A stretch of 64,000 bases of DNA, taken from NCBI RefSeq assembly GCF_003852405.1, contig NZ_QAJM01000018.1, forward strand, positions 62,001 through 126,000, given 5' to 3'. The translations under genes and the position numbers were made by a program. The stretch's first letter is position 1; every line of letters starts with the position of its first letter. This document shows positions 13,208 to 29,176 of this stretch, piece by piece. This DNA comes from Pseudomonas sp. KBW05 (lineage in GTDB: Bacteria; Pseudomonadota; Gammaproteobacteria; Pseudomonadales; Pseudomonadaceae). The notes under the pieces were generated by a model. The model was given only the letters and a program-made list of their open reading frames with translations. It was not told the DNA's origin and searched no databases.

Positions 13208-13285
13208 TACTGGCGTAATGCCGAGTCTGTTATTTGATATTTCTGACAGCAGCACACTGCATTTTCATTGACTAGCCTCTTGGAA

Positions 13286-13324
13286 CCCGCAAGGAAAAGG
13301 CCGCTGCAGCGGCCACCTTTCGGG
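13286..13324. repeat. Long interrupted stem-loop around a 16-bp palindrome
   Basis: A perfect palindrome GGCCGCTGCAGCGGCC (13299-13314) is extended outward by AAGG/CCTT and CCCG/CGGG pairs with small bulges. On the minus strand it is followed by TTTTCC, on the plus strand by ACCTTTC. It may end the ltaE transcript or form a structured leader for the 66-codon gene 57 bases further on. Confidence 0.55.
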
Positions 13325-13380
13325 CCCAACTGCCTGCCGAATCATCGGCCGGAAACGGAAATCCAGCAGAGAGCCAAACC

Positions 13381-13581
13381 ATGGAATATCAAAGCAACGG
13401 CAACACCCTGCAAAACGACGACAGCATCAGCACCACCGTGATTGATTGGGATGAGTTCAGGAAATTCGCCAAAGTCGGCGACACCATCCGCGAGCCATCC
13501 AGGACGCTGCGGATCTACGATAAAGTCTATGAATTGACAGCATCAGGCCAGAACTTCGTCGTACACATCTACGCCCAGTAA
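13381..13581 (+). CDS. Small hypothetical protein, 66 residues
   Basis: No family is recognised. The 66-residue product is soluble-looking and acidic in the middle (STTVIDWDEFRKFAKVGDTIREPSRTLRIYDKVYELTASGQNFVVHIYAQ), with no signal peptide or membrane helix. The pattern of short beta-strand-like segments suggests a compact cytoplasmic fold. A weak GAGAG precedes the ATG. It stands alone between ltaE and gbcB, behind a long stem-loop and in front of a REPIN. Codon use looks like that of a real gene. Confidence 0.6.
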   Translation: MEYQSNGNTLQNDDSISTTVIDWDEFRKFAKVGDTIREPSRTLRIYDKVYELTASGQNFVVHIYAQ

Positions 13582-13593
13582 CCACCCCACGCA

Positions 13594-13681
13594 TGTGGGA
13601 GCTGGCTTGCCTGCGATAGCGGAGCATCAGAACCTTATAGGTAGCTGACACACCGCTATCGCAGGCAAGCCAGCTCCCACA
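13594..13681. repeat. REPIN 4 (TTGCCTGCGAT type)
   Basis: Inverted pair starting TGTGGGAGCTGGCTTGCCTG and continuing CGATAGCGG; the right arm is its complement. This is the second sequence type of REP in the window. It lies between the 66-codon gene and the end of gbcB. Confidence 0.92.
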
Positions 13682-13698
13682 TTGGACTGCGCTCGCTG

Positions 13699-14799
13699 TT
13701 AGAACTCGATGCGTACGTCGCCTTTCGGCACGCTGCAGCACGACAGGATGTAACCCTCGGCTTCGTCTTCCTCGGTGATCCCGCCGTTGTGCTCCATCTC
13801 CACTTCGCCGCCCAGCTTCATCACCTTGCACGTCCCGCAGATCCCCATGCCGCAAGCTTTAGGAATCAACAGGCCAAGCTTGGCCGCCGCCGCGTGCACG
13901 GTTTCGCCCGGGGCCACGCGGATGCTTTTACCCGAGGCAATGAATTCCACCTGGTGCAGATCCGCCAGATCGACTTCCGGCGCATCCGCCGCTTGTTCAG
14001 CTTGCTCCACCGCATCAGCGCGGGCTTCCGGTGGCGTCGCGCCGAAGGACTCCTCGTGATAACGCGCCATGTCGAAACCGGCGACTTCCAGCAAGCGCTT
14101 CACCGCATTCATGTACGGCGTCGGCCCGCAGCAGAACACTTCGCGTTCGAGGAAGTCCGGCACCATCAGTTCCAGCATCTTGTGGTTCAGGTAACCGCGA
14201 TAACCCGCCCAAGGCTCACCCAAGCCGTGCTTCTCACAGATCAGGTGCAGGCTGAAGTTGTCGATCCGCGACGCCATGTGCTCCAGTTCGCGATGGTAGA
14301 TGATGTCTTTGGGTGAGCGGGCGCTGTGGATAAACGTCATGTCGACGTTGGCGTTGGTATCGTAGAACCAGCGCGCCATGGACATCACCGGGGTAATCCC
14401 GACGCCGCCGCTGAGGTACAGCACTTTCGGGCTCGGGAAGTCGATGGCGTTGAACAACCCCACCGGCCCGTGCACCGCCAGTTCCTGACCCTCATGCAGT
14501 GTGTCGTGCAACCAGTTGGAGACTTTGCCGCCCGGTACGCGCTTGATGGTTACCGAAAAGCTATACGGCACCGACGGCGAGCTGGAAATAGTGTACGAAC
14601 GCATGATCGGCTGGCCTTCGATTTCAAGCTCCAGGGTGACGAACTGCCCAGGTTTGAAAAAGAACAGGATCGGCTGATCAGCCATAAAACAGAAGGTGCG
14701 CACGTCCCAGGTTTCCTGGATGACTTTGACGCAACGGACAATGTGCCGACCATTGGCCCAGGTCTGGGTGGTTACCGGATTCAGGAAATTGTTAGACAT
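13699..14799 (-). CDS. gbcB: Glycine betaine demethylase, reductase component
   Basis: Reductase partner of the Rieske oxygenase GbcA; passes electrons from NAD(P)H through FAD and a [2Fe-2S] centre. From ATG at 14799 it has 366 residues: a ferredoxin-reductase part (GQFVTLELEIEGQPIMRSYTISS, then LYLSGGVGITPVMSMARWF) and a C-terminal plant-type ferredoxin domain with CGMGICGTCKVMKLGG and a late cysteine (YILSCCS). The longer open frame upstream lacks support. It is divergent from gbcA. Confidence 0.95.
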   Translation of the reverse strand: MSNNFLNPVTTQTWANGRHIVRCVKVIQETWDVRTFCFMADQPILFFFKPGQFVTLELEIEGQPIMRSYTISSSPSVPYSFSVTIKRVPGGKVSNWLHDTLHEGQELAVHGPVGLFNAIDFPSPKVLYLSGGVGITPVMSMARWFYDTNANVDMTFIHSARSPKDIIYHRELEHMASRIDNFSLHLICEKHGLGEPWAGYRGYLNHKMLELMVPDFLEREVFCCGPTPYMNAVKRLLEVAGFDMARYHEESFGATPPEARADAVEQAEQAADAPEVDLADLHQVEFIASGKSIRVAPGETVHAAAAKLGLLIPKACGMGICGTCKVMKLGGEVEMEHNGGITEEDEAEGYILSCCSVPKGDVRIEF

Positions 14800-16380: not shown

Positions 16381-16485
16381 TGTGGGAGCGGGCTTGTGTG
16401 GGAGCGGGCTTGCTCGCGAAGGCGGTGGATCAGTTGAAAATGCATTGACTGACACACCGCCTTCGCGAGCAAGCCCGCTCCCACA
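16381..16485. repeat. REPIN 5 with a partly duplicated left arm
   Basis: The left end reads TGTGGGAGCGGGCTTG twice in a row (16381-16396, then again from 16397 continuing into TTGCTCGCGAAGGCGG). The right arm is single and ends in CTCCCACA at 16485. The extra 16 bases look like the stub of an older REP into which a complete REPIN moved; compare the element at 59,883. Confidence 0.88.
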
Positions 16486-17227
16486 TTTCCCCTCTCAGTG
16501 TTCAAGATTTGAGCAACACCCTTGCAGCCCGCTCCTGCCCTGCCCTCCAGCCTTTACCCAACAACTTATCCACAAAGACACCCACAGCAATTGTGGGCAA
16601 CTGTGCTTGCCTCCCACAATTAACTGAAGAAAATCCGTGACTTATTCAACTAGCAGGTTTTAAGCAGACACTGGTCATTTTTTAACCATAACCCTGCAAG
16701 CAGCTTAAACCGTGGCCTGTAGCGGTACGCAAACACCTTATCCACAGAACCGCCAACAGACTTTGGGTGTAACTTTGCCTACGCTGTGGAAAACCACGCC
16801 AAAGCTTCATAAACCAAGGCTTCCAGAGCTTTCATTCGCATTTACGGGCAAATTGATTACTTTTTGAGCATGTTGACGAGAGCCTTTATCCATAAGGCCT
16901 GTAGCCGATAGCAAACATCTTATCCACAGAAGCGCCAACAGACTTTGGGGGCAAGTCCAGATTGCTCTACGTCCTTATCCACACGAAAACCTCCCTAAAA
17001 ACCGTCACTTAGCCTGGTCATTTTTCGTACAAGTGCCTGTAACCGTTGATTCACGTGGCCTGTGGGCAGCCACGAACACCTTATCCACAGCCACGCACAC
17101 AGCGATTGTGGGTAACCCCAGCAACTGTACAAAAAACATACGGCATCTACACTTCCCCTTGCAGTTCATTTCACAAGCCTGGGTTAACGCGGAAGTCCTT
17201 GGCGGGATAACAGGAGGCACAACGGTG
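16486..17227. other. 742-bp non-coding region with diverged repeats
   Basis: No convincing gene on either strand. A roughly 60-bp unit occurs three times with divergence, starting at 16714, 16896 and 17057 (spacing 182 and 161). It begins GGCCTGT, continues to AAACACCTTATCCACAG and in the first two copies ends with GCCAACAGACTTTGGG. A related segment is at 16566. A second shared piece, CTGGTCATTTTT, appears near 16670 and 17015. The region is clearly more AT-rich than its surroundings and ends with the AGGAGG ribosome-binding site of the first pseudopilin gene. Confidence 0.75.
16566..17089 (+). promoter_or_regulatory. Cluster of five exact DnaA-box sequences
   Basis: TTATCCACA occurs exactly, all on the plus strand, at 16566-16574, 16738-16746, 16920-16928, 16975-16983 and 17081-17089. 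A one-mismatch copy TTATCCATA lies at 16886-16894. This nine-mer is the consensus DnaA box. No dnaA, dnaN, gyrB or partition gene is near, so this is not evidently the chromosome origin; it may be a DnaA-binding/titration or DnaA-regulated promoter region, or a repeat family that happens to carry the box. Confidence 0.6.
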
Positions 17228-17722
17228 ATGCGGCAGGGTAAAACCAGCCATCACTGCGCCAAAGGTTTTACGCTGATTGAATTGCTACTGACGCTGGCCC
17301 TGCTGGCCACACTCGCGACAGTGGCTTATCCGCTGACGGCACTGATGGGTAAACGCGACCGCGAACTGGACTTGCAACGCTCGTTGCGGGAGATACGCCG
17401 CGCCATCGATTCCTACAAAGAAGCCACCGACGACGGGCGCATTGAAAAGAGCGTCAGTGCCAGTGGTTATCCACCGACCCTGCAAGCACTGGTCGAAGGC
17501 GTCACGGACAAAACCAACCTGCAAGGCAACAAGCTCTATTTCCTGCGCCGCATTCCCCGCGACCCAATGTGCGAATGCCCCGAACTTGTGCCTGAAAAAA
17601 CCTGGCAACTGCGCAGTTACAAGAGTACCGCCGACAGCCCACAAGAAGGAGAGGATGTCTTCGACGTTTCATCCCGCAGCCCCCGGGAGAGTTTGAATGG
17701 AACGTTATACAGCCAGTGGTAA
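17228..17722 (+). CDS. Type II secretion pseudopilin, GspG-like (copy 1)
   Basis: Inner-membrane pseudopilin of 164 residues expected to enter a secretion pseudopilus. The prepilin-peptidase site is classical: Gly13 followed by FTLIELLLTLALLATL with Glu18 at position +5. The start is fixed by AGGAGG at 17212; GTG at 17225 is a possible alternative. The C-terminal domain holds YFLRRIPRDPMCECPELVPEKTWQLRSY, the same layout (RR-x-DP...W) as the next two pseudopilins, suggesting they arose by duplication. The gene overlaps the next by 26 bases. It is the first gene of the secretion operon, downstream of the DnaA-box region. Confidence 0.85.
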   Translation: MRQGKTSHHCAKGFTLIELLLTLALLATLATVAYPLTALMGKRDRELDLQRSLREIRRAIDSYKEATDDGRIEKSVSASGYPPTLQALVEGVTDKTNLQGNKLYFLRRIPRDPMCECPELVPEKTWQLRSYKSTADSPQEGEDVFDVSSRSPRESLNGTLYSQW

Positions 17723-18077
17723 CCGGGGTTTTACCCTGATCGAGTTGCTGGTGGTCATGGCCATCATCGCCACGCTCATGACCCTGGTGACGCCGCACTA
17801 TTTCCGCCAGCACGCCAAGGCCCAGGAAACCGTGCTGCGTCACAACCTGTCATCCATTCGCCAGGCGTTGGACCAATACCGCGAAGACCACGGCGCCAAC
17901 CCCGAATCCCTGCAAACCCTGGTGGATAAACGCTACCTGCGCGAGGTGCCCAAAGACCCGGTGACCGGCAGCCGCGACACCTGGCAACTGCAACCCTCAG
18001 ACGAGCAAGGCCTGGGCGACGTGCGCAGCGGCGCGCCCGGCACTGCCAAGGACGGGACGGCCTATGCCGACTGGTAA
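17697..18077 (+). CDS. Type II secretion pseudopilin, GspG-like (copy 2)
   Basis: Pseudopilin of 126 residues with cleavage after Gly11 (NRG, then FTLIELLVVMAIIATLMTLV) and Glu at +5. The globular part contains SIRQALDQYREDHGANPESLQTLVDKRYLREVPKDPVTGSRDTW, a typical GspG-type layout but shorter than the major pseudopilin at 20,327. It begins inside the previous gene and overlaps the next by 14 bases, so the three are translated together. Confidence 0.85.
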   Translation: MERYTASGNRGFTLIELLVVMAIIATLMTLVTPHYFRQHAKAQETVLRHNLSSIRQALDQYREDHGANPESLQTLVDKRYLREVPKDPVTGSRDTWQLQPSDEQGLGDVRSGAPGTAKDGTAYADW

Positions 18078-18570
18078 ACAGCGCCAACACGGCTCGGTGT
18101 TCATGGGCATGTTGGTGACGGTAGCCGTGGTGGCCGTGATGCTGATGGAAGTGGGCACGCTGTGGTCCAGCGTATTGCAGCGCGAGCGCGAGCTGGAATT
18201 GCTCGCGCGGGGCAATGAGATTCGCCGGGCGATTGGGCTGTATTACCGCGAGGGCAACAGCTTTCCGAAAACCCTCGAAGACCTGGTGCTCGACCGCCGC
18301 CAGTCCACCGTCAAACGCTACCTGCGCCGGGTCTACGATGACCCGCTGACCGGCAGCCCTGAATGGGGCGTGGTCGAGGGGCCGGGTGAAACCATCATGG
18401 GTGTGTTCAGCACAGCCAAGGGCACGCCGTTCAAACAAGGCAACTTTGCAGTCATCAATCAAAGTTTTACAGGGCAAGGTAGTTATCAAGGGTGGGTGTT
18501 TCTGTATGGCTCTGTACAGAGTAATCCTGTAACCCGCACCGCTCCCATGGGAGATCAGCTGAAACCATGA
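18064..18570 (+). CDS. Atypical pseudopilin without Glu+5 (copy 3)
   Basis: A 168-residue protein with one N-terminal membrane helix (about 12-32, VFMGMLVTVAVVAVMLMEVG). Its globular domain matches the two upstream pseudopilins (NEIRRAIGLYYREGNSFPKTLEDLVLDRR ... YLRRVYDDPLTGSPEWGVV). The processing site is unusual: Gly10 is followed by SVFMG, with no glutamate at +5. Among pseudopilins the tip protein GspK also lacks Glu5, so this may be the tip subunit, although it is much shorter than GspK. Confidence 0.75.
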   Translation: MPTGKQRQHGSVFMGMLVTVAVVAVMLMEVGTLWSSVLQRERELELLARGNEIRRAIGLYYREGNSFPKTLEDLVLDRRQSTVKRYLRRVYDDPLTGSPEWGVVEGPGETIMGVFSTAKGTPFKQGNFAVINQSFTGQGSYQGWVFLYGSVQSNPVTRTAPMGDQLKP

Positions 18571-18645
18571 TGGCAAGTGAATAAATCACATTGATCGTTC
18601 CAGCCGTTCGGAACTTGGTTATCTGAATTGAAGGTGGACTCGAGC

Positions 18646-20145
18646 ATGAACACTTTAACGCGGTATTTGAATTATTTGATTCTTGGTTTGCTGACGGCAA
18701 TCGTGTCGGTACCCACAACGAGTTGGGGGCATGGATTTGTCGGACTCCCAATTGATAGGCAATCCAACTGTAAAAGCACAGGAGGGCATTGGTCGGGCTA
18801 CATTGTTGATGACGGCTGCAGAACAGCAGCCGCCATAGAGCCAACGGATGCTGACAAAGCTTATCCGACCGATCAGTTCCATGAGTTCTCCATCAATACA
18901 TTTTCAGCCACTACACCTATTAATCAAATATTGGATCAGCTCCAACAAGGGATGGTGTGCTCGGCAAATGACCCCAAAAAGAGAAGCATGTCCGTGCCAA
19001 CAAAAGACTGGACAAAAGAGCCTTTAACTTCAGGGTCGTCGTTGAATATAAAGCTATTTATGACTGCGGTTCACGTACCCAGCCGAGCGTTCGTCTTCAT
19101 CACCAAGCCAGGATTCAACTCTGCAACGACCTCCGTCAGTGTGGGCGACCTTGTGCCCCTTGGCGGTGTTCATCCGATCACAGCAACTGATGTCCAGCAG
19201 CCGCAATCCGGGACAATACCCAAGGGTCTATGGGCTAGTGGCGTAGTGCAGTTACCCGTCGTTCTTCCAAACGGCCAAACCGGCCCAGCTGTAATCGTGG
19301 TGATTTGGGCCAGAGATGATGACAAGGGCGAGACGTTCGTCATGTGCAGTGACGTGACATTTGGAGGGGGGCAAATCCCGGTAAAACGCTATCTCATTGG
19401 GACTTTCGTCGACCCCGCAACCAAAACAGCGAAGCCCGGCGACAGTATCCGTCACCGTGTCATCAGTAATGGCAACGACGTGAGTGACCAGAAAGTAACG
19501 CTTAACGCGAACAACCTGGACCCCACGCAATGGAGTAAGCAGTTGAAGGACCTCATCACCAACCAAGACATCGAGATTGGCCATGAGGAGAATGGAAAAA
19601 TCGAATTCGACGACACAAATGCAAAGAGAAACCACGTGTACTACAAACATGATGGCGCCATGCAGAACATGACGGTCATTGACGGTGAGGGCCCTGCTCC
19701 AACCCCGGTGGCAGAAATTACCGGACCTGTCGACTTGGTTTCCGGACAACCCTATACCTTCACCGGGACGCTTAGAAACGCGCAGAACACCCCACAATAT
19801 GCGTGGGCCCCGGTATTGATCACTAATAACATCAGTTCTAAAACAGTAACCGGACCTGCACCCGTCGTCACACAGCCCACGGACTTTATAGTGCGATTGA
19901 ACACACGCGATGGGCAAACCGGCGCCAACTACACCGCGACACATGCCGTCAGAGTGTCTCCAGCTACAGGTTTCCCTCAATGGAAACCGAATGGCGGCTA
20001 TAACAGCGGCTCAGAAGTATCCAATCATGGCGTGAACTACCGGTGCAAACAGGGAGCCGCCGGAGCATGGTGCGGGCAGGACGTAAATGAACCTGGCAAA
20101 CCTGGCTCCACATTCTGGCAGCGAGCGTGGGACGTTGTTCCTTGA
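18646..20145 (+). CDS. AA10 lytic polysaccharide monooxygenase with C-terminal chitin-binding module
   Basis: Secreted copper enzyme expected to cleave chitin (possibly cellulose) oxidatively. From ATG 18646 (AAGGTGG upstream) the product has 499 residues. The signal peptide ends at Gly28, leaving His29 (HGFVG) as mature residue 1. The second copper histidine is His143 in LFMTAVHVPSRAFVFITKPG, and a Phe in ETFVMCSDVTF fits the axial position. After the AA10 domain (to about 245) come a middle region and a C-terminal carbohydrate-binding module like CBM5/12 or CBM73 (FPQWKPNGGYNSGSEVSNHG ... FWQRAWDVVP). The domain order recalls P. aeruginosa CbpD, a type II secretion substrate. It interrupts the pseudopilin genes, and its base composition is visibly more AT-rich than its neighbours. 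Confidence 0.9.
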   Translation: MNTLTRYLNYLILGLLTAIVSVPTTSWGHGFVGLPIDRQSNCKSTGGHWSGYIVDDGCRTAAAIEPTDADKAYPTDQFHEFSINTFSATTPINQILDQLQQGMVCSANDPKKRSMSVPTKDWTKEPLTSGSSLNIKLFMTAVHVPSRAFVFITKPGFNSATTSVSVGDLVPLGGVHPITATDVQQPQSGTIPKGLWASGVVQLPVVLPNGQTGPAVIVVIWARDDDKGETFVMCSDVTFGGGQIPVKRYLIGTFVDPATKTAKPGDSIRHRVISNGNDVSDQKVTLNANNLDPTQWSKQLKDLITNQDIEIGHEENGKIEFDDTNAKRNHVYYKHDGAMQNMTVIDGEGPAPTPVAEITGPVDLVSGQPYTFTGTLRNAQNTPQYAWAPVLITNNISSKTVTGPAPVVTQPTDFIVRLNTRDGQTGANYTATHAVRVSPATGFPQWKPNGGYNSGSEVSNHGVNYRCKQGAAGAWCGQDVNEPGKPGSTFWQRAWDVVP

Positions 20146-20190
20146 CTCAAGTGCTTATGCACTGACTCGATAACTGCAAGCGCCAAACGT

Positions 20191-20216
20191 TATAGGGCGC
20201 CTAACGGCGCCTTATA
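20191..20216 (+). terminator. Hairpin after the LPMO gene
   Basis: An 11-bp stem (20191-20201 with 20206-20216, TATAGGGCGCC against GGCGCCTTATA with one G-T pair) and a TAAC loop, about 45 bases after the LPMO stop. There is no strong T run, so it may slow or partly end transcription before gspG. Confidence 0.6.
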
Positions 20217-20326
20217 TCGCGCACCGCTACAGTTGAAAGCAGTACAGGTTCTAACGTAGTCCTACCGGCGGTGCCCGCTTGAAAAACGTGGGCCGGAAGA
20301 GTTATACACAACCGCCGGGTATCGTC

Positions 20327-20758
20327 ATGCGCACACGCACGCTTATCCACAGCCCCCAAAGCGGCTTCACCCTGCTGGAGCTGCTCGTCGTCCTGCTGAT
20401 CATCGCCCTCCTCGCCGGCTACGTCGGCCCGAAGATGTTCGATCGCCTGGAACTGGCCAAAGTGCAAACCGCCCAGGGCCAGATGAAGTCCCTTGCCGAC
20501 GCCTTGAACCAGTACCGCCTGGACAACGGCAACTACCCCGACGAAACCCTCGGCCTCAATGCCCTGACTACCCGTCCCGCCAACGCCACCAACTGGCAGG
20601 GACCGTATCTGAAAACGCTGCCGCCCGACCCCTGGGGTAACCCCTATATCTTCAAGAACCCTGGCACTCCACCCAACGACGCCGAGATCATCTCCCTGGG
20701 CCGCGATGGCAAGGCCGGTGGGGTGAACACCTACGCCGACATCGTCTACGGACTGTGA
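20327..20758 (+). CDS. gspG: Major pseudopilin GspG
   Basis: Major pseudopilin of the secretion system; 143 residues from ATG 20327, the usual GspG length. The prepilin site is Gly13 then FTLLELLVVLLIIALLAGYVGPKMF with Glu at +5. The C-terminal half has the GspG signature WQGPYLKTLPPDPWGNPYIF and a likely calcium-binding end (ISLGRDGKAGG). An upstream TTG (20279) could extend the leader, but the ATG form fits the family. The next gene begins one base after the stop. Confidence 0.93.
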   Translation: MRTRTLIHSPQSGFTLLELLVVLLIIALLAGYVGPKMFDRLELAKVQTAQGQMKSLADALNQYRLDNGNYPDETLGLNALTTRPANATNWQGPYLKTLPPDPWGNPYIFKNPGTPPNDAEIISLGRDGKAGGVNTYADIVYGL

Positions 20759-20759
20759 C

Positions 20760-21224
20760 ATGCACACGCTGCGGATGGTCCTGACCCTGTTGTGCCTTAT
20801 CGGCACCGCCCAGGCCAACTGTTGGCAGTTGGCGGCCAGCCGCTATCACGTCGATCCCTTGTTGCTGTACGCCATCGCCAAGGTCGAATCCAACCTCAAC
20901 CCCCGCGCACGCAATATCAACGGCGACGGCAGCCAGGACATCGGCCTGATGCAGATCAACAGCCGCCACTTGCCCGCGCTCGCGCAGTTCGGCATCACCG
21001 AGCAGCACTTGATCAACCAGCCGTGCACCAGTGTGATGGTCGGCGCGTGGATCCTGGCCGGGTTCATTCAGGAACAGGGCTATGGCTGGCAGGCTGTCGG
21101 AGCCTATAACGCGGGCGCCCGGCCGGATCGTGAAGCACGCCGTATGCGCTATGCACGGGCGGTATGGCACTACTACGGCGACCTGGTGCAACAGCGCCAA
21201 CAACTGGCCAGGCAGACGCCATGA
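20760..21224 (+). CDS. Lytic transglycosylase, SLT domain (IpgF/VirB1-like)
   Basis: Periplasmic peptidoglycan-cleaving enzyme of 154 residues with a signal peptide (about 1-19, cleaved after AQA). The SLT catalytic glutamate is Glu43 in LLYAIAKVESNLNPRA; DIGLMQINSRHLP and VGAYNAGARPD are the other family motifs. Such enzymes open the cell wall for large envelope machines and are usual in type III, type IV secretion and some pilus loci, but unusual inside a type II secretion operon. It starts one base after gspG and overlaps gspF by four bases (ATGA). Confidence 0.9.
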   Translation: MHTLRMVLTLLCLIGTAQANCWQLAASRYHVDPLLLYAIAKVESNLNPRARNINGDGSQDIGLMQINSRHLPALAQFGITEQHLINQPCTSVMVGAWILAGFIQEQGYGWQAVGAYNAGARPDREARRMRYARAVWHYYGDLVQQRQQLARQTP

Positions 21225-22405
21225 TCGACATCGACGCGCGCATCATCCGCGACGGCCATTTGCAGACCTTGCGTCTGCAAGCCCTCGACCTCACCCAGGC
21301 GCGCCGGCAACTGCAAGCCGACGGCGCCCAGGTCGTCTCGCTGAAGGCACGTCGCCAACTCAAGCTGCCCAGCCGTCGCGCCAAATTCGCCCTCGGCCTG
21401 TTTATCCAGGAGCTGGTGGTGTTGCTGGACGCCGGCCTGGTGCTGGTGGAAGCCGTGGAAACCCTGCGCGACAAAGCGCCGCCAGGGATCAACCGGCAGG
21501 TCATGAGCGATTTGCTTGCATCGATGTACGAAGGCAATTCACTGTCCAGGGCGATGCAGCTCAAGCCACAGATTTTTCCCGAGCTGTTGATCGCCACCGT
21601 GGCCTCGTCCGAGCACAGCGGCCAACTGGCCGTAGCGCTACGACGTTATCACCATTTCGAAGCGCATCTGGAGACGGTGAAAAAGCGCGTGAGCGGCGCA
21701 CTGATGTACCCCTTGGTGGTGTTGGGCGTGGGCGCGTTGATCCTGCTGTTCCTGTTGTTTTTCGTGATTCCGCGCTTTGCCTCGGTGTTCGATGCGGTGG
21801 CCGACCTGCCCGCCACCGCGCGCTTTATGGTGTGGTGGGGCGCGCTGGTGGATACACGCGGCACCGAGCTGTTGATCGGCCTGGTGCTGGCGATCATCGC
21901 GCTCGTGGTGCTGCTGCGCAGCGCCGCCTTCAAACGCCGGGTCGCCAACCTGTTCTGGAAAATCCCCAGCCTCGGCGCTCAGCGCACGCTGTTTATCCTC
22001 GCGCGCTTTTATCGCACCGCCGGCATGTTGCTGATGGGCGGCATGCCAGTGGTCACGGCGGTGGAAATGTCCGGCGCACTGCTGCCCATCGAGCGCCAGG
22101 CCGACCTGCGCCACGCCATGACCGATATCCAGGCCGGCCAGCCGCTTTCCACGTCCCTGGCGCGCCATCAACTGACCACCGCCGTTGCCGAACGCCTGCT
22201 TCGCGTCGGCGAGCAAAGCGGTGAATTGGCGGCCATGTGCGAGCGTATTGCGCAGTTTCACGACGAAGCGCTGGAGCGCGCCATCGAGCTGTTCAGCAAG
22301 GTTTTCGAACCCTTGCTGATGCTGGTGGTGGGCGGGCTGATCGGCCTGATCGTGTTCATGTTGTACATGCCGATTTTTGAATTGGCAGGATCCATACAGG
22401 GGTAA
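21221..22405 (+). CDS. gspF: Type II secretion inner-membrane platform protein GspF
   Basis: Polytopic platform protein of 394 residues (GspF/PilC family) on which the pseudopilus is assembled. Two repeated T2SSF domains are seen: one near 70-190 (FIQELVVLLDAGLVLVEAVETL) and one near 270-390 (LARFYRTAGMLLMGGMPVVTAVEMSG). Membrane helices lie near 170-195 (VLGVGALILLFLLFFVIPRF), 225-245 and at the C-terminus (LMLVVGGLIGLIVFMLYMPIF). ATG 21221 overlaps the upstream stop. Confidence 0.93.
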   Translation: MIDIDARIIRDGHLQTLRLQALDLTQARRQLQADGAQVVSLKARRQLKLPSRRAKFALGLFIQELVVLLDAGLVLVEAVETLRDKAPPGINRQVMSDLLASMYEGNSLSRAMQLKPQIFPELLIATVASSEHSGQLAVALRRYHHFEAHLETVKKRVSGALMYPLVVLGVGALILLFLLFFVIPRFASVFDAVADLPATARFMVWWGALVDTRGTELLIGLVLAIIALVVLLRSAAFKRRVANLFWKIPSLGAQRTLFILARFYRTAGMLLMGGMPVVTAVEMSGALLPIERQADLRHAMTDIQAGQPLSTSLARHQLTTAVAERLLRVGEQSGELAAMCERIAQFHDEALERAIELFSKVFEPLLMLVVGGLIGLIVFMLYMPIFELAGSIQG

Positions 22406-22409
22406 TGCC

Positions 22410-24047
22410 ATGAGCGAGCAGACGCGGCAGTGGCAAGCGCTAGCGGAGCAGCGCTCGATGTCAGTGGCCAACTACTTGGTGGAAGTGCTGCACGAGTCGC
22501 CCGATCAATTGAGCAGCATTGCCGCGCCACTGGGCTTGATCGCCATCGAGCCCGGTCAGCTGGAACACCATTGGCGTTTCGACGTGTTGTCGCTGCCTCA
22601 GTCGCTGATCCACAACGTGCTCCCCCTGGACTACCAGGGCCAAACCTGCCTGGCGCTGGGCGAGCCGTTTACCCTGGCCAACCGACACTGGCTCCAGTCC
22701 ACCCCTGGCCTGCGCCAGCTGCCCCTGGCCATGAGCCTGCCGGGTGCGGTCAAGGCCCAACTGAAACTGGCCGAAGCCAGCCAGCGCGTGATGCAACCCT
22801 TCGGCGAAGGCGACGAAAACGTCCGCGTCGGCCAGGCCGCCGAAGAGATCTCACTGAGCAGCCTCGCCCGCGATGACAACCCGGTGGTGCGCCTGGTCAA
22901 CTCGATGTTGTTCGACGCCTTGCAAAGCCGCGCCAGCGATATCCATGTGGAAACCAACCCCGAAGGCCTGGAGATCAAGTACCGCATCGACGGCGTGTTG
23001 CAAAAGATGGGCAAAGCCAGCGGCCTGGACATGGCCGAACAGGCGCTGTCACGGATCAAGGTGTTGTCGGAGCTGGATATCGGCGAGCGCCGGGTGCCTC
23101 AGGACGGGCGTTTCAAAATGAAAATCCAGGGCCGCGAGGTGGATTTCCGCGTGTCGATCATGCCCAGCATCCACGGTGAAGACGCGGTGCTGCGCATCCT
23201 CGACAAGTCGCAGCGCGGCGAGTCCCTGAGCCTGGAAAGCCTCGGCCTGGCCGCTGACACCATTGCGCGTATTCGCGTGTTGGCCAGCGAGCCCTACGGC
23301 ATGTTGATCGTCACCGGGCCCACTGGCAGTGGCAAGTCCACGACCCTGTATGCCGCACTCACGGAGATCAATACGGGCGAGCAGAAAATCATCACCATCG
23401 AAGACCCGGTGGAGTATCACTTGGCCGGTGTGACGCAGATCCCGGTCAACGACAAGAAGGGCCTGACATTCGCCCGTGGCCTGCGCTCGATCCTGCGCCA
23501 CGATCCCGACACGATTCTGGTGGGGGAAATCCGCGATGGCGAAACCGCCGGTATCGCCGTGCAAGCCGCCCTGACCGGTCACCGCGTGCTGACCTCGTTG
23601 CACGCCAACAGCGCCTTCAGCGTCCTTGAGCGTTTCAGCTACATGGACGTCGATGCCCACAGCGTGGTGGAAGCCCTCAACGGTGTGGTTGCTCAACGCC
23701 TGGTGCGACGCATCTGCGCGGACTGTGGGGTCACTACCAAACCCGATGCAGAAATCGCTCGGCTCGCCCACTTGACCAGTGCCCAGCTCAAGCAAGGCCA
23801 CTACCGCATCGGCAAAGGCTGCGAGGCCTGCCGCCACACCGGCTATCGCGGGCGGATCGCCCTGGCAGAAGTCCTCGGCATGACCGACAGCATCAAACAA
23901 GGGCTGCTCGACCGCAGTTCGGCAGCCACCTTGCGCGAGCTGGCGCGCGAAGCCGGCCACGTGTTCATCCGCGATATCGCCCTGGCCCACGCGGCCCAGG
24001 GCGATACCACGCTCAAGGAGATCCACCGTGTCATTTCCCTTTACTGA
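22410..24047 (+). CDS. gspE: Type II secretion ATPase GspE
   Basis: Cytoplasmic hexameric ATPase (545 residues from ATG 22410) that powers pseudopilus assembly. It shows an N-terminal N1E-like domain, Walker A GPTGSGKST at 303-311, Asp box ITIEDPVEYHLAGVTQIPVN, Walker B ILVGEIRD at 369-376 and the zinc tetracysteine Cys436/439/471/474. It follows gspF by four bases and its end overlaps the next gene by 20 bases. Confidence 0.94.
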   Translation: MSEQTRQWQALAEQRSMSVANYLVEVLHESPDQLSSIAAPLGLIAIEPGQLEHHWRFDVLSLPQSLIHNVLPLDYQGQTCLALGEPFTLANRHWLQSTPGLRQLPLAMSLPGAVKAQLKLAEASQRVMQPFGEGDENVRVGQAAEEISLSSLARDDNPVVRLVNSMLFDALQSRASDIHVETNPEGLEIKYRIDGVLQKMGKASGLDMAEQALSRIKVLSELDIGERRVPQDGRFKMKIQGREVDFRVSIMPSIHGEDAVLRILDKSQRGESLSLESLGLAADTIARIRVLASEPYGMLIVTGPTGSGKSTTLYAALTEINTGEQKIITIEDPVEYHLAGVTQIPVNDKKGLTFARGLRSILRHDPDTILVGEIRDGETAGIAVQAALTGHRVLTSLHANSAFSVLERFSYMDVDAHSVVEALNGVVAQRLVRRICADCGVTTKPDAEIARLAHLTSAQLKQGHYRIGKGCEACRHTGYRGRIALAEVLGMTDSIKQGLLDRSSAATLRELAREAGHVFIRDIALAHAAQGDTTLKEIHRVISLY

Positions 24048-24753
24048 GCACGTGGTGTGGTTACACAACAGCGGCGCCACGTGGGCCGCCCGCCCGCGCT
24101 GGCGGGGCGCAACCGTATGGCGCGCGGAGCAGGCCGGCGAGCCGTTGGCAGCCTGCGCGCAATTGCTGGAGCAAGCACCGCGCGGGCGCGTGCGGTTTCT
24201 GGACCGGGCCAACGTACTGCTGGGGTTTCCCCATGTGCACTATCTGATGCTGCCATGGCAGACAGGCCTGCACCGCCAGGTTGACTGGCAAGGATTTGCT
24301 GAAGCCGCATTCAACCAGCAGGCCGGTATCGGTGCCGAGGGCTGGCAAGTGCAGGTCGCCAACAGTGCCTTCGGCCATGACCGCCTCGCGGTGGCGATCC
24401 AACGCGACCTGCTGCAAGACCTGCGCGACCTGTTCAAGCTGGCGCGCTTGCCCCTGCTGACCTGCACGCCATTGCTCACGGCCGTGGCCCAGCGCTACTG
24501 GCGGTACCTGCCCGAAGACTGCGTGCTCGCGGTCCCCGAAGCCACCGGCCTCAGTTGCCTCTATCGGCAACAGGGCACGCCGTCCCAGGTGTGCGTGCTG
24601 CCCACCCAACCCGACAGCCTATTGAGCGACAACCTGTTCACTGCCGACCTGCTCGCGCAACGCTCGGCGCCAGCCACGCTGATCGTCGCCAATCGCCCTG
24701 TCGCGCCATGGCTGGGGCCGTTGCATCCCTGGCTGGAGGAAGCCCCGGCATGA
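24028..24753 (+). CDS. Probable GspL/PilM-like cytoplasmic component
   Basis: A 241-residue protein starting at GTG 24028 (AAGGAGAT five to six bases upstream), with no signal peptide or membrane helix. Sequence similarity is too weak for a firm call. Its place between the ATPase gene and genes for PilN-, PilO- and PilP-like proteins is where pilM or the cytoplasmic half of gspL would be; segments such as FLDRANVLLGFPHVHYLMLPW and LPEDCVLAVPEATGLSCLYRQQG would fit an actin-like fold. The function is inferred from context. Confidence 0.5.
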   Translation: MSFPFTEHVVWLHNSGATWAARPRWRGATVWRAEQAGEPLAACAQLLEQAPRGRVRFLDRANVLLGFPHVHYLMLPWQTGLHRQVDWQGFAEAAFNQQAGIGAEGWQVQVANSAFGHDRLAVAIQRDLLQDLRDLFKLARLPLLTCTPLLTAVAQRYWRYLPEDCVLAVPEATGLSCLYRQQGTPSQVCVLPTQPDSLLSDNLFTADLLAQRSAPATLIVANRPVAPWLGPLHPWLEEAPA

Positions 24754-25304
24754 ACTCCAGGCTCACGACCCTCAGGCAACAGTTGCGCGCGGCCCCTGCG
24801 CCCGGGGTGGATTTCCAACACCCCAACGCCGCCCACCGACCGTTGCTGGCGGTGTTATGGCTGCTGGCGCTGGCGCTGCTGTTCAACACCTGGCAGCACT
24901 GGCAGCGCATGGAGCAACAGCAACTGCGCACCGATGAGCTGGAACAGCAATTCATTCAACTGACACGTCGCCAGGAGCAGTTGATCCAGGCTGCCATTCG
25001 CCTGTCGCCCCAGCAAAAACAGCAGCTGGAGGCGTTCTCCAAACAGTCGCAGACGCCCTTTGCACTGATCGACGCAGTCGCCCAGGCCTGGTCCAAGGAG
25101 ATCGCCCTGACGCGGATAGAAGTCAACACCCAGAACCAAGTGCTGCACCTGGACCTGGAAGCCCGGGCATTGGCCGAAGCGTTCCGTTTTGTCGAGCGGC
25201 TCAAGGCCAAGCCGGGGGTGCGTGTGAGCCTGCAACAAAGCGCGCGCAAGCCCAACGACCCGCAACACCCGGTGCAGGTCAAACTCACCGTTGGCGCGGG
25301 GTAA
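24750..25304 (+). CDS. Bitopic membrane protein, GspL-C/PilN-like
   Basis: A 184-residue protein with a short cytoplasmic N-terminus (about 1-30), one membrane helix (about 31-47, LLAVLWLLALALLF), a Gln-rich coiled coil (about 52-100) and a small periplasmic ferredoxin-like domain (KEIALTRIEVNTQNQVLHLDLEARALAEAFRFVERLKAKPGVRVSLQQ). This layout is that of PilN or of the C-terminal half of GspL. It overlaps the upstream gene by four bases and is followed six bases later by the PilO/GspM-like gene. Confidence 0.65.
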   Translation: MNSRLTTLRQQLRAAPAPGVDFQHPNAAHRPLLAVLWLLALALLFNTWQHWQRMEQQQLRTDELEQQFIQLTRRQEQLIQAAIRLSPQQKQQLEAFSKQSQTPFALIDAVAQAWSKEIALTRIEVNTQNQVLHLDLEARALAEAFRFVERLKAKPGVRVSLQQSARKPNDPQHPVQVKLTVGAG

Positions 25305-25310
25305 CCGCCC

Positions 25311-25847
25311 ATGGACATCCTCACTCGTCACCTGCCGCGCCTGCGCTGGCAGCTGATGCAATGGCAACAAGGCCTGGGCTTCTGGGGCTTGTTGGCGCTG
25401 GGGGTGATGGCGGCAACGCTGTTGATTGAAGTGGCGCTGATTCACCCGGCGGGCATCGCCGACCAGCAGCGACGCCAGGAACTGGAGGCCGGTATCGCCG
25501 AACAACCCCAGGATGTGCAGGTCACCGAGCCGGCGGTGGTGGATAAAATGCCCAGCGCCCATGACTTCGCCCCGCGCCTGGAAACGTTGCTGGGCACCCT
25601 CACCCAGCGTGGTTTCATCATTGAACAAACCACCCTGGCCTACTCCGCGCCGGGCGACACCGGGCTGCAACGCCTGGAGGTCGAGATCCCACTCAGCGGC
25701 CCCTACGTGCTGTTGCGCGAAGCCTTGGCGGACGTGGCGCAGCAGCCGGCCGTGCGTATCGAAAGCGTGACCCTGGAACGCAAGGAGATCCTCAGTGGCG
25801 TGCTCACCATCAGCCTCAAAGTCAGCGTCCTGGGGGTGGTGGAATGA
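25311..25847 (+). CDS. Bitopic membrane protein, GspM/PilO-like
   Basis: A 178-residue protein with one membrane helix (about 23-44, FWGLLALGVMAATLLIEVALI), a short linker helix and a periplasmic alpha/beta domain (LETLLGTLTQRGFIIEQTTLAY ... LQRLEVEIPLSGPYVLLREALADVAQQPAVRIESVTLERKE). This matches the PilO/GspM arrangement, which forms dimers with PilN/GspL in the inner-membrane platform. It overlaps the next gene by four bases (ATGA). Confidence 0.65.
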   Translation: MDILTRHLPRLRWQLMQWQQGLGFWGLLALGVMAATLLIEVALIHPAGIADQQRRQELEAGIAEQPQDVQVTEPAVVDKMPSAHDFAPRLETLLGTLTQRGFIIEQTTLAYSAPGDTGLQRLEVEIPLSGPYVLLREALADVAQQPAVRIESVTLERKEILSGVLTISLKVSVLGVVE

Positions 25848-26329
25848 AGCTGCCGCTGTATTTGCGCGCGCTGTTGCTGCTGACCTTGATTGGCTGCGGC
25901 TGGCTGTTCTGGCAAGACGCGCCGCAACGCCCGGCCAACGCGCCTGTGGCGCAAGTTGCCAAACCCATCGACACTGCGACCGTCTCAACGCCCGAACCAC
26001 CGGCGAGCCCAGTGATCGACCTGTTCCCTGCCCAAACCTGGGTCCCGTTGCCGCCGCCGACACCGGTGGACAACTCACCGCCCAAACCACCGCCGTTGCC
26101 CTTCACCGTCGCCGCGCAATGGCGTTACGAGAACCAGGCAAAAATCGTCGTGCTAAGCGGCAATGGCAGCCAATACACCCTGTGCAACCGTTGCGCGGTG
26201 CCCGGGCGCATCGTGCCGGGCAAGATGCTCGACGCGCACTACCGACTGGACAAACTTACCGATACCGCCGTGGTGCTGACCTACATGCCGCTCAAGCATG
26301 TCAGCACCCTGCGCCTGGACACGCGTTGA
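25844..26329 (+). CDS. GspC/PilP-like periplasmic connector
   Basis: A 161-residue protein with an N-terminal membrane anchor (about 7-24; a Cys at 18 follows LTLIG and could be a lipobox-like site), a long Pro-rich linker (about 28-92) and a small C-terminal domain (about 93-161) with FTVAAQWRYENQAKIVVLSGNG, a CNRC pair and ending LKHVSTLRLDTR. The homology-region domain of GspC and PilP, which contacts the secretin, has this size and place. There is no PDZ domain. It directly precedes the secretin gene, as pilP precedes pilQ. Confidence 0.65.
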   Translation: MKLPLYLRALLLLTLIGCGWLFWQDAPQRPANAPVAQVAKPIDTATVSTPEPPASPVIDLFPAQTWVPLPPPTPVDNSPPKPPPLPFTVAAQWRYENQAKIVVLSGNGSQYTLCNRCAVPGRIVPGKMLDAHYRLDKLTDTAVVLTYMPLKHVSTLRLDTR

Positions 26330-26347
26330 CCGGGAAAGGAAACGATC

Positions 26348-28285
26348 ATGTCGATACGTACGTGGATCCCCTTGAGCCTGACGCTGATGCTGCTCAATGG
26401 CTGCGAGACCCAGCGGGCGATCAAGCACAGCGAAGAGTTGCGTCAACAAGGCGACATCGTCAGGTCAGTCGAAGTGCTCCAGGCCGAAGCCAAAACCGCG
26501 CCCGACGATGTGCAATTGCGCACGGCGCAATTCGGCAAGCTGGAGCTGCTGGTTGCCCAATACAGCCGCGAGGCCAGCACCGCGCTGATGCGCGGCGACG
26601 ACGCGGCGGCCATCCGCGCGCTGGAAACCATCCTCAAATACGACCCCAGCAACCTCGGCGCACGCCAGGAAATCCAGAGCATCCAGGCCATGAAACAACT
26701 GCGCCCGCAACTGGCGCGGGCCTATGAAATGAAACGCGCCAACCCGGTGGAAGCGCTCAACCTGGTGCGCCAGATCATCGCGCAAAAGCCCAACTACCGT
26801 GAGGCCCTGGACTTTCGCAACGCCCTGACCCGCGAGCTGGTGAGCGCCGACTATCTGAGTGCCAACCTGTCCGACGCCATGCGCAAACCCCTGAGCCTGG
26901 AATTCAGCTCCCAGAGCCTGAGCACGATTTTCGAAACCATCGCGCGCCTGTCGGGGGTCAACTTTGTCATCGACAAGGACGTCAATCCGAGCGCCGCTGC
27001 CAGCATGACGGCCAGTCGCACCACGGCCGAAGATGCACTGAACCTGTTGCTGACCACCCAGGGGCTGGAGAAGAAAATCCTCAACAACAACACGATCCTG
27101 ATCTACCCCCGGCGCCCGGACAAAGAACGCGAATACCGCGAGCTGGCGGTGCGCACGTTCTACCTCAGCCATGGCGACGCCAAGGTCGTCGCCGCCGAGA
27201 TCAAGCAGGTGCTCAAGCCCAAGGAAGTACTGGTGGATGAGCGTCTGAACGCGGTGATCGTACGTGATGGGCTCGACACCCTGAGCGCCGTGGAGAAGAT
27301 GGTTGAGGCCATTGATATCGCGCAGTCGGAAGTGACCATTGATATCCAGGTGCTGGAGGTTGGCGTGGACGATGAGCAAAACCTGGGCATCCAGTACCCG
27401 GGGAGCATTGGCTTGTCGGTCGGCAACCTGGCCAACGTACCCGCCGGGCTGGCGGGCATCCCCATCAGCGCATTGCGCGGGATCAATGGCGATAACATTC
27501 TGCTGGATTCGGGGAGCACCTCGGCGCGCATCAATATGCTGCAACGCAGCGGCAACACCGTGACCCTGGCCAACCCACGGGTACGCGTGCGCAACCGCGA
27601 AGAGGCCTCGGTCAATATCGGCGACAAGATCCCCGTAGTGACCACCACCACCGCCAACCAGATCACCACCTCATCCGTGTCCTACCAGGACGTGGGGTTG
27701 CAGATCAGCGTCAAGCCGATCATCAGCCTGAGCGATGAGGTCAACCTGGAACTGAACGTGGAAATGAGCCATATCACCAAGCGGATCGAGGCGACAGACA
27801 CGGTTCCGGCGACGTTTGAACTGGGTTCCCGCGCCACCAAGACGCTGCTGACCGCGCGAAACAATGAAACCCAGATTGTCTCGGGCCTGATCCGCACCGC
27901 CGAGATCGACGAAGGCTCTGGGCTGCCCTGGTTGAGCCAGATCCCCTGGATCGGCAAGAAGCTGTTTGGCACCAACAAAAGCACCCAGCAGAAAACCGAA
28001 ATCATCCTGCTGCTGACGCCGAGGATCGAGCGCAACCTGGATCTACCGATCTCGCAGATCAGCACCTTTCACAGCGGCACCGAGGCGCGCAGTTCGACGG
28101 AGGGGATGATCTTGCGCGATACCACCGAGAAGATGATTCTCAAGCCGACGGGGGGTGATCCAACGCCGCCGATACCACCGCCGATGAACACGTCGGGGCC
28201 TTGGGAACCGTTGCCGCCGCCGTTGCCACCACTTGTGCCCAAACCTGCACCAGTATCGGCACCTCAGGCTCCCCAGACACAGTGA
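26348..28285 (+). CDS. gspD: Lipoprotein secretin (GspD/PilQ/MshL-like) with TPR-like N-terminus
   Basis: Outer-membrane channel of the system, 645 residues. The signal peptide ends in a lipobox (LMLLNGC, Cys19), so the secretin is probably lipidated and self-targeted. Residues about 25-170 look like helical TPR repeats (REASTALMRGDDAAAIRALETILKYDPSN). Then come an STN/N0-type domain (PLSLEFSSQSLSTIFETIARLSGVNFVIDKDVN), an N1-type domain (VRTFYLSHGDAKVVAAEIKQVL) and the secretin core with VTLANPRVRVRNREEASVNIGDKIPVV and LLTPRI near its end. The tail is Pro-rich. Lipidated secretins such as HxcQ work without a pilotin, and no pilotin gene is present here. Confidence 0.9.
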   Translation: MSIRTWIPLSLTLMLLNGCETQRAIKHSEELRQQGDIVRSVEVLQAEAKTAPDDVQLRTAQFGKLELLVAQYSREASTALMRGDDAAAIRALETILKYDPSNLGARQEIQSIQAMKQLRPQLARAYEMKRANPVEALNLVRQIIAQKPNYREALDFRNALTRELVSADYLSANLSDAMRKPLSLEFSSQSLSTIFETIARLSGVNFVIDKDVNPSAAASMTASRTTAEDALNLLLTTQGLEKKILNNNTILIYPRRPDKEREYRELAVRTFYLSHGDAKVVAAEIKQVLKPKEVLVDERLNAVIVRDGLDTLSAVEKMVEAIDIAQSEVTIDIQVLEVGVDDEQNLGIQYPGSIGLSVGNLANVPAGLAGIPISALRGINGDNILLDSGSTSARINMLQRSGNTVTLANPRVRVRNREEASVNIGDKIPVVTTTTANQITTSSVSYQDVGLQISVKPIISLSDEVNLELNVEMSHITKRIEATDTVPATFELGSRATKTLLTARNNETQIVSGLIRTAEIDEGSGLPWLSQIPWIGKKLFGTNKSTQQKTEIILLLTPRIERNLDLPISQISTFHSGTEARSSTEGMILRDTTEKMILKPTGGDPTPPIPPPMNTSGPWEPLPPPLPPLVPKPAPVSAPQAPQTQ

Positions 28286-28293
28286 AGACCCAA

Positions 28294-28383
28294 TGTGGGA
28301 GCGGGCTTGCTCGCGAATGTGGTGTGTCAGCCAACCTATTCATTGACTGATCCACCGCATTCGCGAGCAAGCCCGCTCCCACA
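28294..28383. repeat. REPIN 6 (TTGCTCGCGAA type)
   Basis: Inverted pair of 90 bases with arms TGTGGGAGCGGGCTTGCTCG and complement, between the convergent ends of the secretin gene and etfB. It may serve as the transcript end for both. Confidence 0.92.
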
Positions 28384-28405
28384 CTTGATCTTCTGCGCTT
28401 TCGGA

Positions 28406-29176
28406 TTAGCGGACGACGCCTTCTTCCACCAACAACTTGAGAATCGCCTGTGCGCCCTCTTCCGCGCTCACGCCCTTGAGCACCTGCCCGCCGCCCCCAC
28501 TGGCCTTGGCCGTCGCTGCCTTCATCCGATCCGCACCGCTCTTGGCCTTGATCACCTTCAGGCGCTTGGGCCGCGGCTTGGCCGGTTGCAACACCGCGTC
28601 GGCGAACAAGCCATCCTCTTCAACCTCGACCTCATGGGCTGCCAGTTCACCGCGTTGCGCCGGACCATACGCGCTCTGCCGAGGCTTCGGTGCGGCGTTA
28701 TCCACCGTCGCGAGGAACGGCAAGCGCACCTTCAACCGCCGCCGCTGCCCACGCGGCAAGGCTTGCAGCACGTGCGCCACGCCGCCGTCGATGGACTCCA
28801 CCTGCGCCAGCCCGACAATCAACGGCCAGCCCAATTGCTCGGCGAGCAAAAACGGCAACATGCCCGAGCCTTCGCCGGTTTCCGCCTGGCTGCCGGCGAG
28901 CACCACATGGGCACCTGCATCGCGCAGATAGTCGCTGAGCACCGGTAACGCATCGCTGCCGGCCGGTTGTTCCAGCACATGCAATTGCGGCAGGCCCATG
29001 CCCAGGTAACTGCGCAGGGTCGGCTCGTTGATATTGCCGGCGTGCAGCACCTGCAACTTATCCCCAGCCATCTGCAAACCCAGCTCGACCGCACGCGCGT
29101 CTTGCTCGGCGCGGCGCGGGCGCCCGGAAGTCGGGTGGGCGCCGATGGACACCAGGCTGATTACATTCGTGGTCAT
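28406..29176 (-). CDS. etfB: Electron transfer flavoprotein beta subunit (dimethylglycine pathway)
   Basis: Beta subunit of an electron-transfer flavoprotein that accepts electrons from dimethylglycine demethylation. From ATG 29176 it has 256 residues. Adenine-nucleotide-binding alpha-hydrolase features include VLHAGNINEPTLRSYLGMGLPQLHVLE and AGAHVVLAGSQAETGEGSGMLPFLLAEQLGWP, the ETF-beta signature area. It differs from the housekeeping EtfB and has an extended charged stretch near 190-225 (KPRPKRLKVIKAKSGADRM). It lies 10 bases after etfA. Confidence 0.9.
   Translation of the reverse strand: MTTNVISLVSIGAHPTSGRPRRAEQDARAVELGLQMAGDKLQVLHAGNINEPTLRSYLGMGLPQLHVLEQPAGSDALPVLSDYLRDAGAHVVLAGSQAETGEGSGMLPFLLAEQLGWPLIVGLAQVESIDGGVAHVLQALPRGQRRRLKVRLPFLATVDNAAPKPRQSAYGPAQRGELAAHEVEVEEDGLFADAVLQPAKPRPKRLKVIKAKSGADRMKAATAKASGGGGQVLKGVSAEEGAQAILKLLVEEGVVR

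Follow-up and report, generated by a model that had tools for sequence, protein, structure and literature searches.

The window analysed here, a 64,000-nt stretch of Pseudomonas sp. KBW05 (source genome 6.5 Mb, 69 contigs), carries on its + strand, at 17225-28285, a 13-gene operon with several overlapping genes, which encodes an atypical type II secretion system (T2SS) and, inside it, a secreted lytic polysaccharide monooxygenase (LPMO). We propose, with a probability of about 0.6, that this is an Xcm-like atypical type II operon dedicated to LPMO export and that its cargo gene is a replaceable cassette. An earlier note on this DNA had described the operon limits, tandem pseudopilins, a GspG, an SLT lytic transglycosylase, GspF, GspE, four small genes and a lipobox secretin, all borne out here, but its gene list omitted the 499-aa LPMO gene at 18646-20145, which indicates the probable purpose of the operon.

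Anatomy of the operon

The genes stand in the order psp1, psp2, psp3, LPMO, gspG, SLT, gspF, gspE, M, N, O, P, gspD (TM, transmembrane segment; AF2, AlphaFold2).

17225..17722, + strand: psp1, pseudopilin (GFTLIE); PF07963 3.8e-7; TIGR02532; GTG at 17225 preferred over ATG at 17228
17697..18077, + strand: psp2, GspG-like pseudopilin (GFTLIE); PF07963 1.1e-8; PF08334 2.5e-4; TIGR01710 61.8 bits (below the cut-off of 88.85)
18064..18570, + strand: psp3, pseudopilin-like, without Glu at +5 (GSVFMG); no Pfam or NCBIfam family match; conserved in 14 rows
18571..18645, no strand: spacer 5' of the cargo gene, left edge of the putative cassette; DNA identity 82-92% in nine relatives, falling at the cargo start
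18646..20145, + strand: cargo, secreted AA10 LPMO, 499 aa; PF03067 5.6e-25; PF18416 4.9e-8; PF02839 5.2e-4 (below cut-off)
20146..20326, no strand: spacer 3' of the cargo gene, right edge of the putative cassette; DNA identity 68-87% in nine relatives
20327..20758, + strand: gspG, major pseudopilin; PF08334 6.2e-34; TIGR01710 145.3 bits (above the cut-off of 88.85)
20760..21224, + strand: SLT lytic transglycosylase, IagB-like; PF01464 1.3e-26; NF011856 182.7 bits (below the cut-off of 208)
21221..22405, + strand: gspF, platform protein; PF00482 8.8e-40; TIGR02120 232.8 bits (below the cut-off of 424); tree
22410..24047, + strand: gspE, assembly ATPase; PF00437 5.7e-123; TIGR02533 472.4 bits (below the cut-off of 630); tree
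24028..24753, + strand: M, cytoplasmic, candidate counterpart of PilM or the GspL N-domain; no family match; no strong TM stretch; AF2 model
24750..25304, + strand: N, one TM, candidate counterpart of PilN or the GspL C-domain; from topology, with GspL_C in 1/19 relatives (0.014)
25311..25847, + strand: O, one TM, candidate GspM/PilO counterpart; T2SSM_b in 7/18 relatives, none in the window's own O
25844..26329, + strand: P, one TM and a six-strand domain, without PDZ, candidate PilP or GspC counterpart; AF2 model; weak hhalign match to GspC
26348..28285, + strand: gspD, predicted lipidated secretin with TPR-like N-terminal part; PF00263 2e-33; PF03958; PF07660; TIGR02517 147 bits (below the cut-off of 351); tree

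By Pfam, the homologues of canonical GspE, GspF, GspG and secretin are all present; with respect to the NCBIfam equivalog cut-offs, GspG passes while GspE, GspF and GspD fall short. The secretin shows the lipobox of a liposecretin, LNGC at residues 16-19, with Cys19 invariant in 14 rows, and is thus predicted to be lipidated. Family scans with Pfam and NCBIfam found no full-size GspC, H, I, J, K, L or M, no peptidase and no pilotin in the operon, in agreement with the absences listed in the earlier note; more specifically, they gave no PDZ- or coiled-coil GspC, no fused GspL and no match to GspH-K of the usual size. As that note had expected, a prepilin peptidase is available elsewhere in the genome: two matches were found (C11:301169 and C65:433361), either of which may serve the operon. 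A second GspE (C24) and a second long secretin (C36) likewise lie at other places in the genome. Scans for promoters and terminators yielded nothing beyond what shuffled sequences gave.

Gene order and near-equal gene lengths are kept in 13 relatives, apart from the cargo of L051 and psp3 of L049. In L051 (genome G139), the cargo reading frame is interrupted, and in L049 (G286) the end of psp3 diverges from the other 13 rows (58% identity), in either case possibly through damage or an assembly error.

The cargo is an AA10 LPMO present throughout the operon genomes

The cargo protein contains the domains LPMO_10 (5.6e-25) and GbpA_2 (4.9e-8) and a CBM_5_12-like end below cut-off, preceded by a signal peptide with cleavage before the mature N-terminal His29, as judged by eye. 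LPMO_10 together with the N-terminal His brace assigns it to AA10. All 26 distinct cargos compared retain His29, His143 and Phe231; the two histidines are the copper-binding pair (His brace), and Phe231 likewise belongs to the copper site. Among the relatives returned by profile searches of the PDB are CbpD, GbpA, fusolin and a chain named chitinase B, and the substrate may be chitin, cellulose or a similar polysaccharide. Like CbpD of P. aeruginosa and GbpA of Vibrio, the slot LPMO joins AA10 to a GbpA_2-like domain and a C-terminal binding module; unlike them, it is encoded inside a secretion operon and appears to be exchanged between neighbours.

It might be argued that the machine exports proteins encoded elsewhere, that the LPMO is one passenger among them or leaves by Xcp, and that the slot simply hosts a variable gene. 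The canonical GspE and GspD parts in the genome speak for this reading, as does CbpD, an LPMO of P. aeruginosa that is reportedly an Xcp substrate. We nevertheless consider it unlikely: the LPMO model matches the slot in all 14 operon genomes (in G139 as two partial matches, one with a stop), some of which hold a second LPMO elsewhere, the copper-site residues are kept without exception, and the operon shares no other gene.

The cargo slot diverges with sharp edges inside a near-constant machine

In order to compare cargos, we gathered 38 slot loci (the window's, 13 and a further 24), which, after removal of two cut by contig ends, one interrupted (L051) and nine repeats, left 26 distinct cargos; identities were computed in a core set of 19 genomes (171 pairs). 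The cargo has a median identity of 43% (range 20-87), whereas the medians of the 12 machine genes lie between 73 and 91%: psp1 88, psp2 91, psp3 84, GspG 90, SLT 85, GspF 91, GspE 86, M 75, N 73, O 74, P 76 and GspD 90%. The cargos of L082 and L086 even belong to another AA10 type by Pfam; identities of a cargo of this type are 48-54% with stand-alone GbpA-type LPMOs and 20-25% with three other slot cargos. Despite this different cargo type, the L086 machine is the nearest to the window's (GspE 93%); between the two, the synonymous divergence (dS) is 0.08 for psp3 and 0.10 for GspG, while that of the cargo is saturated.

DNA profiles, drawn for nine of the 18 other core genomes, locate the edges of this divergence. 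Identity to the window is 84-96% in psp3 and 82-92% in the 75-bp spacer, falls to 48-73% over the cargo's signal, catalytic and middle segments, and recovers to 68-87% in the spacer 3' of the cargo and 85-96% in gspG. For the C-terminal module, identity is 86-87% in L047 and L050 and 50-61% in the other seven, suggesting that this module moves on its own. The divergence is therefore specific to the slot and sharply bounded, and it would be explained by cargo exchange through recombination in the conserved flanks.

A single orthologous gene, evolving fast under diversifying selection and with no cassette involved, would be an alternative. Graded identities (69-87%) in several pairs and a machine-like cargo dS in two pairs are what it would predict. 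On the other side, the ratio of nonsynonymous to synonymous divergence (dN/dS) of the cargo is 0.08-0.18 in the 8 resolved of ten chosen pairs, saturated dS stands beside flanks at 0.08-0.10, and the sharp DNA edges, the separately moving C-terminal module and the other AA10 type in L082 and L086 all count against it. Stand-alone LPMOs provide a control: among the six long ones read (57-91% identity; L164 left out), those of three core genomes are 83-91% identical, with slot cargos of the same genomes at 51-61%, so that LPMOs outside the slot evolve slowly in those genomes. We hold this alternative to be very improbable, and change in place was rejected as the main cause of cargo variability because of the saturated cargo dS beside low-dS flanks and the low dN/dS.

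The machine belongs to an Xcm-like lineage

Xcm-like loci were gathered by similarity to the window's GspD or GspE, so that their mutual nearness is partly a matter of selection and their separation from canonical T2SSs is the informative part. In the carefully computed GspE tree, all 34 family rows stand apart from 39 others with support 100/100; among them, the branch that holds the window groups with Izhakiella and Serratia sp. AKBS12 (100/100). The GspF, GspD and enlarged GspE trees were quick searches: 35/35 family rows group together in GspD (Shimodaira-Hasegawa-like approximate likelihood ratio test, SH-aLRT, 100) and 26/27 in GspF, with L106 outside, and after addition of Pseudomonas Xcp-like, Txc-like and further T2SS rows to the GspE tree, 21/21 family rows remain apart (SH-aLRT 100). 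L108, and in the GspD tree L101, were counted as family though unlabelled by the triad test. The labels Txc-like and Hpl-like were assigned in this analysis, and the comparison rows are without a named Hxc or Hpl (PA2669-PA2677, as named in the excerpted text of PMC12369383).

The trees, of the kind suggested in the earlier note, thus give a clade separate from T2SS and pilus rows and not within the Pseudomonas Xcp rows. Of the distinct T2SS lineage claimed there, the position outside the canonical rows in GspE, GspF and GspD holds; the lineage is, however, not an unknown one, since it joins the Xcm-like systems. From the sequences, we place the window's operon as a sister branch within Xcm-like atypical T2SSs, in which a single operon holds all the parts.

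We also considered that the operon builds a surface pilus of type IV or MSHA-like kind, which either bears the LPMO at the tip or has nothing to do with it. The split M-N-O-P gene order, the several pilin-like genes and a GspE scoring 442 bits to PilB against 472 to GspE are compatible with it; however, GspG passes the T2SS GspG cut-off, family scans found no retraction ATPase in the operon, and pilus-type rows fall apart from GspE, GspF and GspD of the operon (in trees without a named MSHA system). This makes a pilus very unlikely, and pilus identity was rejected; GspE and GspF do not group with PilB and PilC. Because T2SS and pilus-type GspE rows both lie opposite the family, the operon is not shown to be nearer to pili.

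A close GspD (65-100%) occurs in 14 of 299 sampled Pseudomonas genomes, KBW05 included, and a more distant one (31-35%) in 100 of the 299, with one genome having both kinds. Outside Pseudomonas, the class sample has matches in 8 of its 368 genomes, and those carriers of this operon that have a name belong to Pseudomonas (24 of the 33 loci from one search). One carrier is P. grimontii DSM 17515 (L075), a non-pathogenic type strain. A plasmid relative in Burkholderia ambifaria adjoins a di-haem cytochrome c peroxidase, and those in Eleftheria and Janthinobacterium adjoin large repeat proteins. The betaproteobacterial relatives L157, L158, L099 and L103 have a longer secretin (751-794 aa), annotated 'cohesin domain-containing' in two plasmid records. 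In the Serratia relative L097, unlike in the Pseudomonas operon, psp3 is directly followed by a gene (13275-14042, + strand) that on visual inspection resembles a prepilin peptidase.

Comparison with Xcm, Txc and a reduced Shewanella system

The lineage is not new, as Xcm of Pseudomonas putida has been known since 2003; in strains GB-1 and KT2440 it is reportedly required for secretion of the Mn-oxidising factor, going by the title of de Vrind et al. 2003. For comparison we read seven Pseudomonas clusters (L057-L063, 19.5 kb each) from the 100 more distant matches, which probably represent Xcm. They fall in the same GspE and GspD clade as the window, have GspE, GspD and the psp1-psp2-psp3 triad in 7/7 and hold M/P-like small genes; the triad, with a psp3 lacking Glu5, is likewise found in the window's operon. 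Unlike the latter, they show no match to GspF, a separate GspG, SLT or LPMO within the 19.5 kb. In P. putida, Xcm presumably has csgEFG-like (csm) neighbours and GspG and GspF encoded elsewhere; the window's operon differs in having gbcA and etf neighbours and GspG and GspF inside. L060, the sole cluster scanned with Pfam, has CsgE, CsgF and CsgG downstream, and upstream a beta-propeller, two SCO, cytochrome c/binding protein and SurA-type genes. A large open reading frame further upstream, cut by the end of the stretch, matched no Pfam family and is MnxG-like by layout alone, a layout that fits the mnxG operon of P. putida GB-1 and KT2440 as far as excerpted descriptions of it go.

A T2SS with a linked cargo has a precedent in Txc of P. 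paraeruginosa PA7, which, by the excerpted text of PMC12369383, secretes the linked chitin-binding protein CbpE and is a canonical T2SS with GspL (txcY). Three Txc-like clusters, moreover, adjoin a GbpA-type LPMO. Nevertheless, an ordinary Txc-type T2SS with a CbpE-like LPMO is hardly credible here: Txc-like GspE rows lie inside the canonical T2SS clade and the window outside it, and GspJ/K-type genes are found in the Txc-like clusters only. The LPMO of Txc adjoins the gene block, whereas the window's lies between pseudopilin genes. Membership of the canonical T2SS clade, Txc-like rows included, was rejected because the GspE trees place the window's machine outside. The three clusters adjoining a GbpA-type LPMO (L186, L187 and L188), canonical Pseudomonas T2SSs in which that gene lies next to gspD, thus show a second, separate T2SS-LPMO linkage.

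The GspD2 translocon of Shewanella vesiculosa HM13 is another non-canonical T2SS with one linked cargo, P49 (excerpt of PMC6971210). By its description there, it resembles the window's operon as a second, reduced T2SS missing GspC, L, M, H, I and J, and differs in that GspK2 is present and the cargo, not an LPMO, goes to vesicles.

Small platform genes and pseudopilins

The earlier note had described the four small genes as standing in PilM-N-O-P order. The window's own copies of the four give no match to any PilM/N/O/P or Gsp family of Pfam or NCBIfam. Their topology (M without a strong membrane stretch; N, O and P with one TM each near the N-terminus) fits PilM-N-O-P, or GspL in two halves followed by GspM and GspC. 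Among relatives of O, 7/18 match T2SSM_b (best 2.6e-9) and one matches PilO (0.0043), and a plasmid relative is annotated GspMb/PilO; Pfam scans of relatives of M, N and P gave no convincing family. The pilus-like character of the platform is thus read from gene order and topology, since a clear family match among relatives exists only for O. Of the pilus-like inner platform proposed before, the split into four small genes stands, while the GspE tree shows no nearness to pili.

Aligned with hhalign, M is collinear with canonical GspL, although weakly (P 0.00085, probability 24%), the match of protein P to GspC is weaker (P 0.007, probability 5%), and O and N show no kinship. The AF2 model of M is a confident alpha/beta fold (pLDDT 92.6), and that of protein P a helix and a six-strand domain (pLDDT 78.2, pTM 0.47); profile searches of the PDB with M and P gave nothing up to E 1. 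We propose M and N together as a candidate GspL counterpart, O, with its T2SSM_b-like relatives, as a candidate for GspM, and protein P as a candidate GspC counterpart without PDZ. The predicted lipidated secretin could similarly replace a pilotin.

The start of psp1 is probably GTG 17225, since that codon is kept in the five relatives compared and the following one varies. Of the three tandem pseudopilins described in the earlier note, psp1 and psp2 have family matches and psp3 has none. Across 64 family loci, nine duplicates included, Glu at +5 was read in 62/64 for psp1 and 62/64 for psp2 (two each unread) and in 0/64 for psp3, where the script chose a later Gly in some rows. Canonical GspK likewise lacks Glu5. 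We suggest psp3 as a candidate stand-in for GspK, and psp1-psp3 together as candidate stand-ins for the minor pseudopilins.

A model of LPMO export and cargo exchange

In the model that we favour, derived from sequence comparison, the operon's own machine would export its LPMO. The protein would cross the inner membrane by Sec, then fold and take up copper in the periplasm. GspE and GspF would build a short GspG pseudopilus, primed by psp1-psp3, its pseudopilins matured by the peptidase encoded elsewhere in the genome, and this pseudopilus would push the LPMO out via the predicted lipidated secretin. M, N, O and P may form the link between motor and secretin, and the cell wall may be opened for the machine by the SLT enzyme. 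Outside the cell, the LPMO would cut a polysaccharide such as chitin. Whole LPMO genes, and sometimes the C-terminal module alone, would be swapped by recombination in the conserved flanks while the machine stays.

Several results weigh against this model. The LPMO could be exported by the canonical T2SS parts of the same genome, and neither family matches nor folds firmly back the roles given to M, N and P. The six other machine genes measured in the window-L086 pair differ more than the two flanks, with dS of 0.22-0.71. In the pairs L046-L077 and L048-L095, the cargo dS (0.49 and 0.54) lies within the machine range, as in plain descent. Finally, cargo distance is weakly linked to GspE (r 0.35, p 0.025; 19 genomes) and to M (r 0.27, p 0.021; 17 genomes), both uncorrected among 24 tests, in which no machine gene clearly tracks the cargo.

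More tentatively, and at somewhat less than even odds, the Xcm-like family as a whole may consist of single-cargo exporters, each fitted with an enzyme of its own. Two AA10 types of LPMO occur here, and relatives have copper-protein operons, a di-haem peroxidase or large repeat proteins next to them; in this branch, the cassette would be swapped without a matching change in the machine. If the cargo is swapped in this way, the recognised feature should be general or a short shared signal. If the model is true, a near-constant machine with no fewer than 26 natural cargos, some as little as 20% identical, could help to locate the T2SS export signal and would bear on how T2SSs recognise folded cargo, the replaced linked cargo amounting to a natural domain-swap experiment on export choice. 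It would also give a testable function to an atypical T2SS branch that standard family models score below cut-off, and it suggests that LPMOs are a locally exchanged trait in environmental and plant-associated Pseudomonas. We regard the operon as an LPMO-dedicated branch of an atypical T2SS lineage already known, not as a categorically new system; what stands out is the constant machine with exchangeable cargo. No description of the LPMO-carrying branch turned up in the open-access literature, a scope outside which most subscription papers lie.

Flanking DNA and possible insertion site

Upstream, gbcA has its end at 16377; on the other side, a pair of electron-transfer flavoprotein genes on the opposite strand starts at 28406. 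In four operon-less genomes the gbcA-etfB gap is about 790-870 bp in three, where the window's upstream stretch aligns to it, and about 8.6 kb in the fourth (L201). The operon is therefore either an addition at this site in this branch or was lost elsewhere.

Between gbcA and psp1, within 16566-17089 (+ strand), the exact DnaA box TTATCCACA occurs five times on one strand, with positions 16566, 16738, 16920, 16975 and 17081; the whole window has ten against 0.13 expected. The same five boxes, with spacing 172/182/54-55/106, are found in L044 and L045 and in the operon-less L199 and L200, while L201 has five with other spacing, L198 four and L053 none. The cluster is possibly a DnaA-titration or reactivation site older than the operon. 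REP-like (repetitive extragenic palindrome) short inverted repeats flank the operon at about 16397-16488 and 28290-28390, and further copies occur in the matching region of L200 and, in part, L199.

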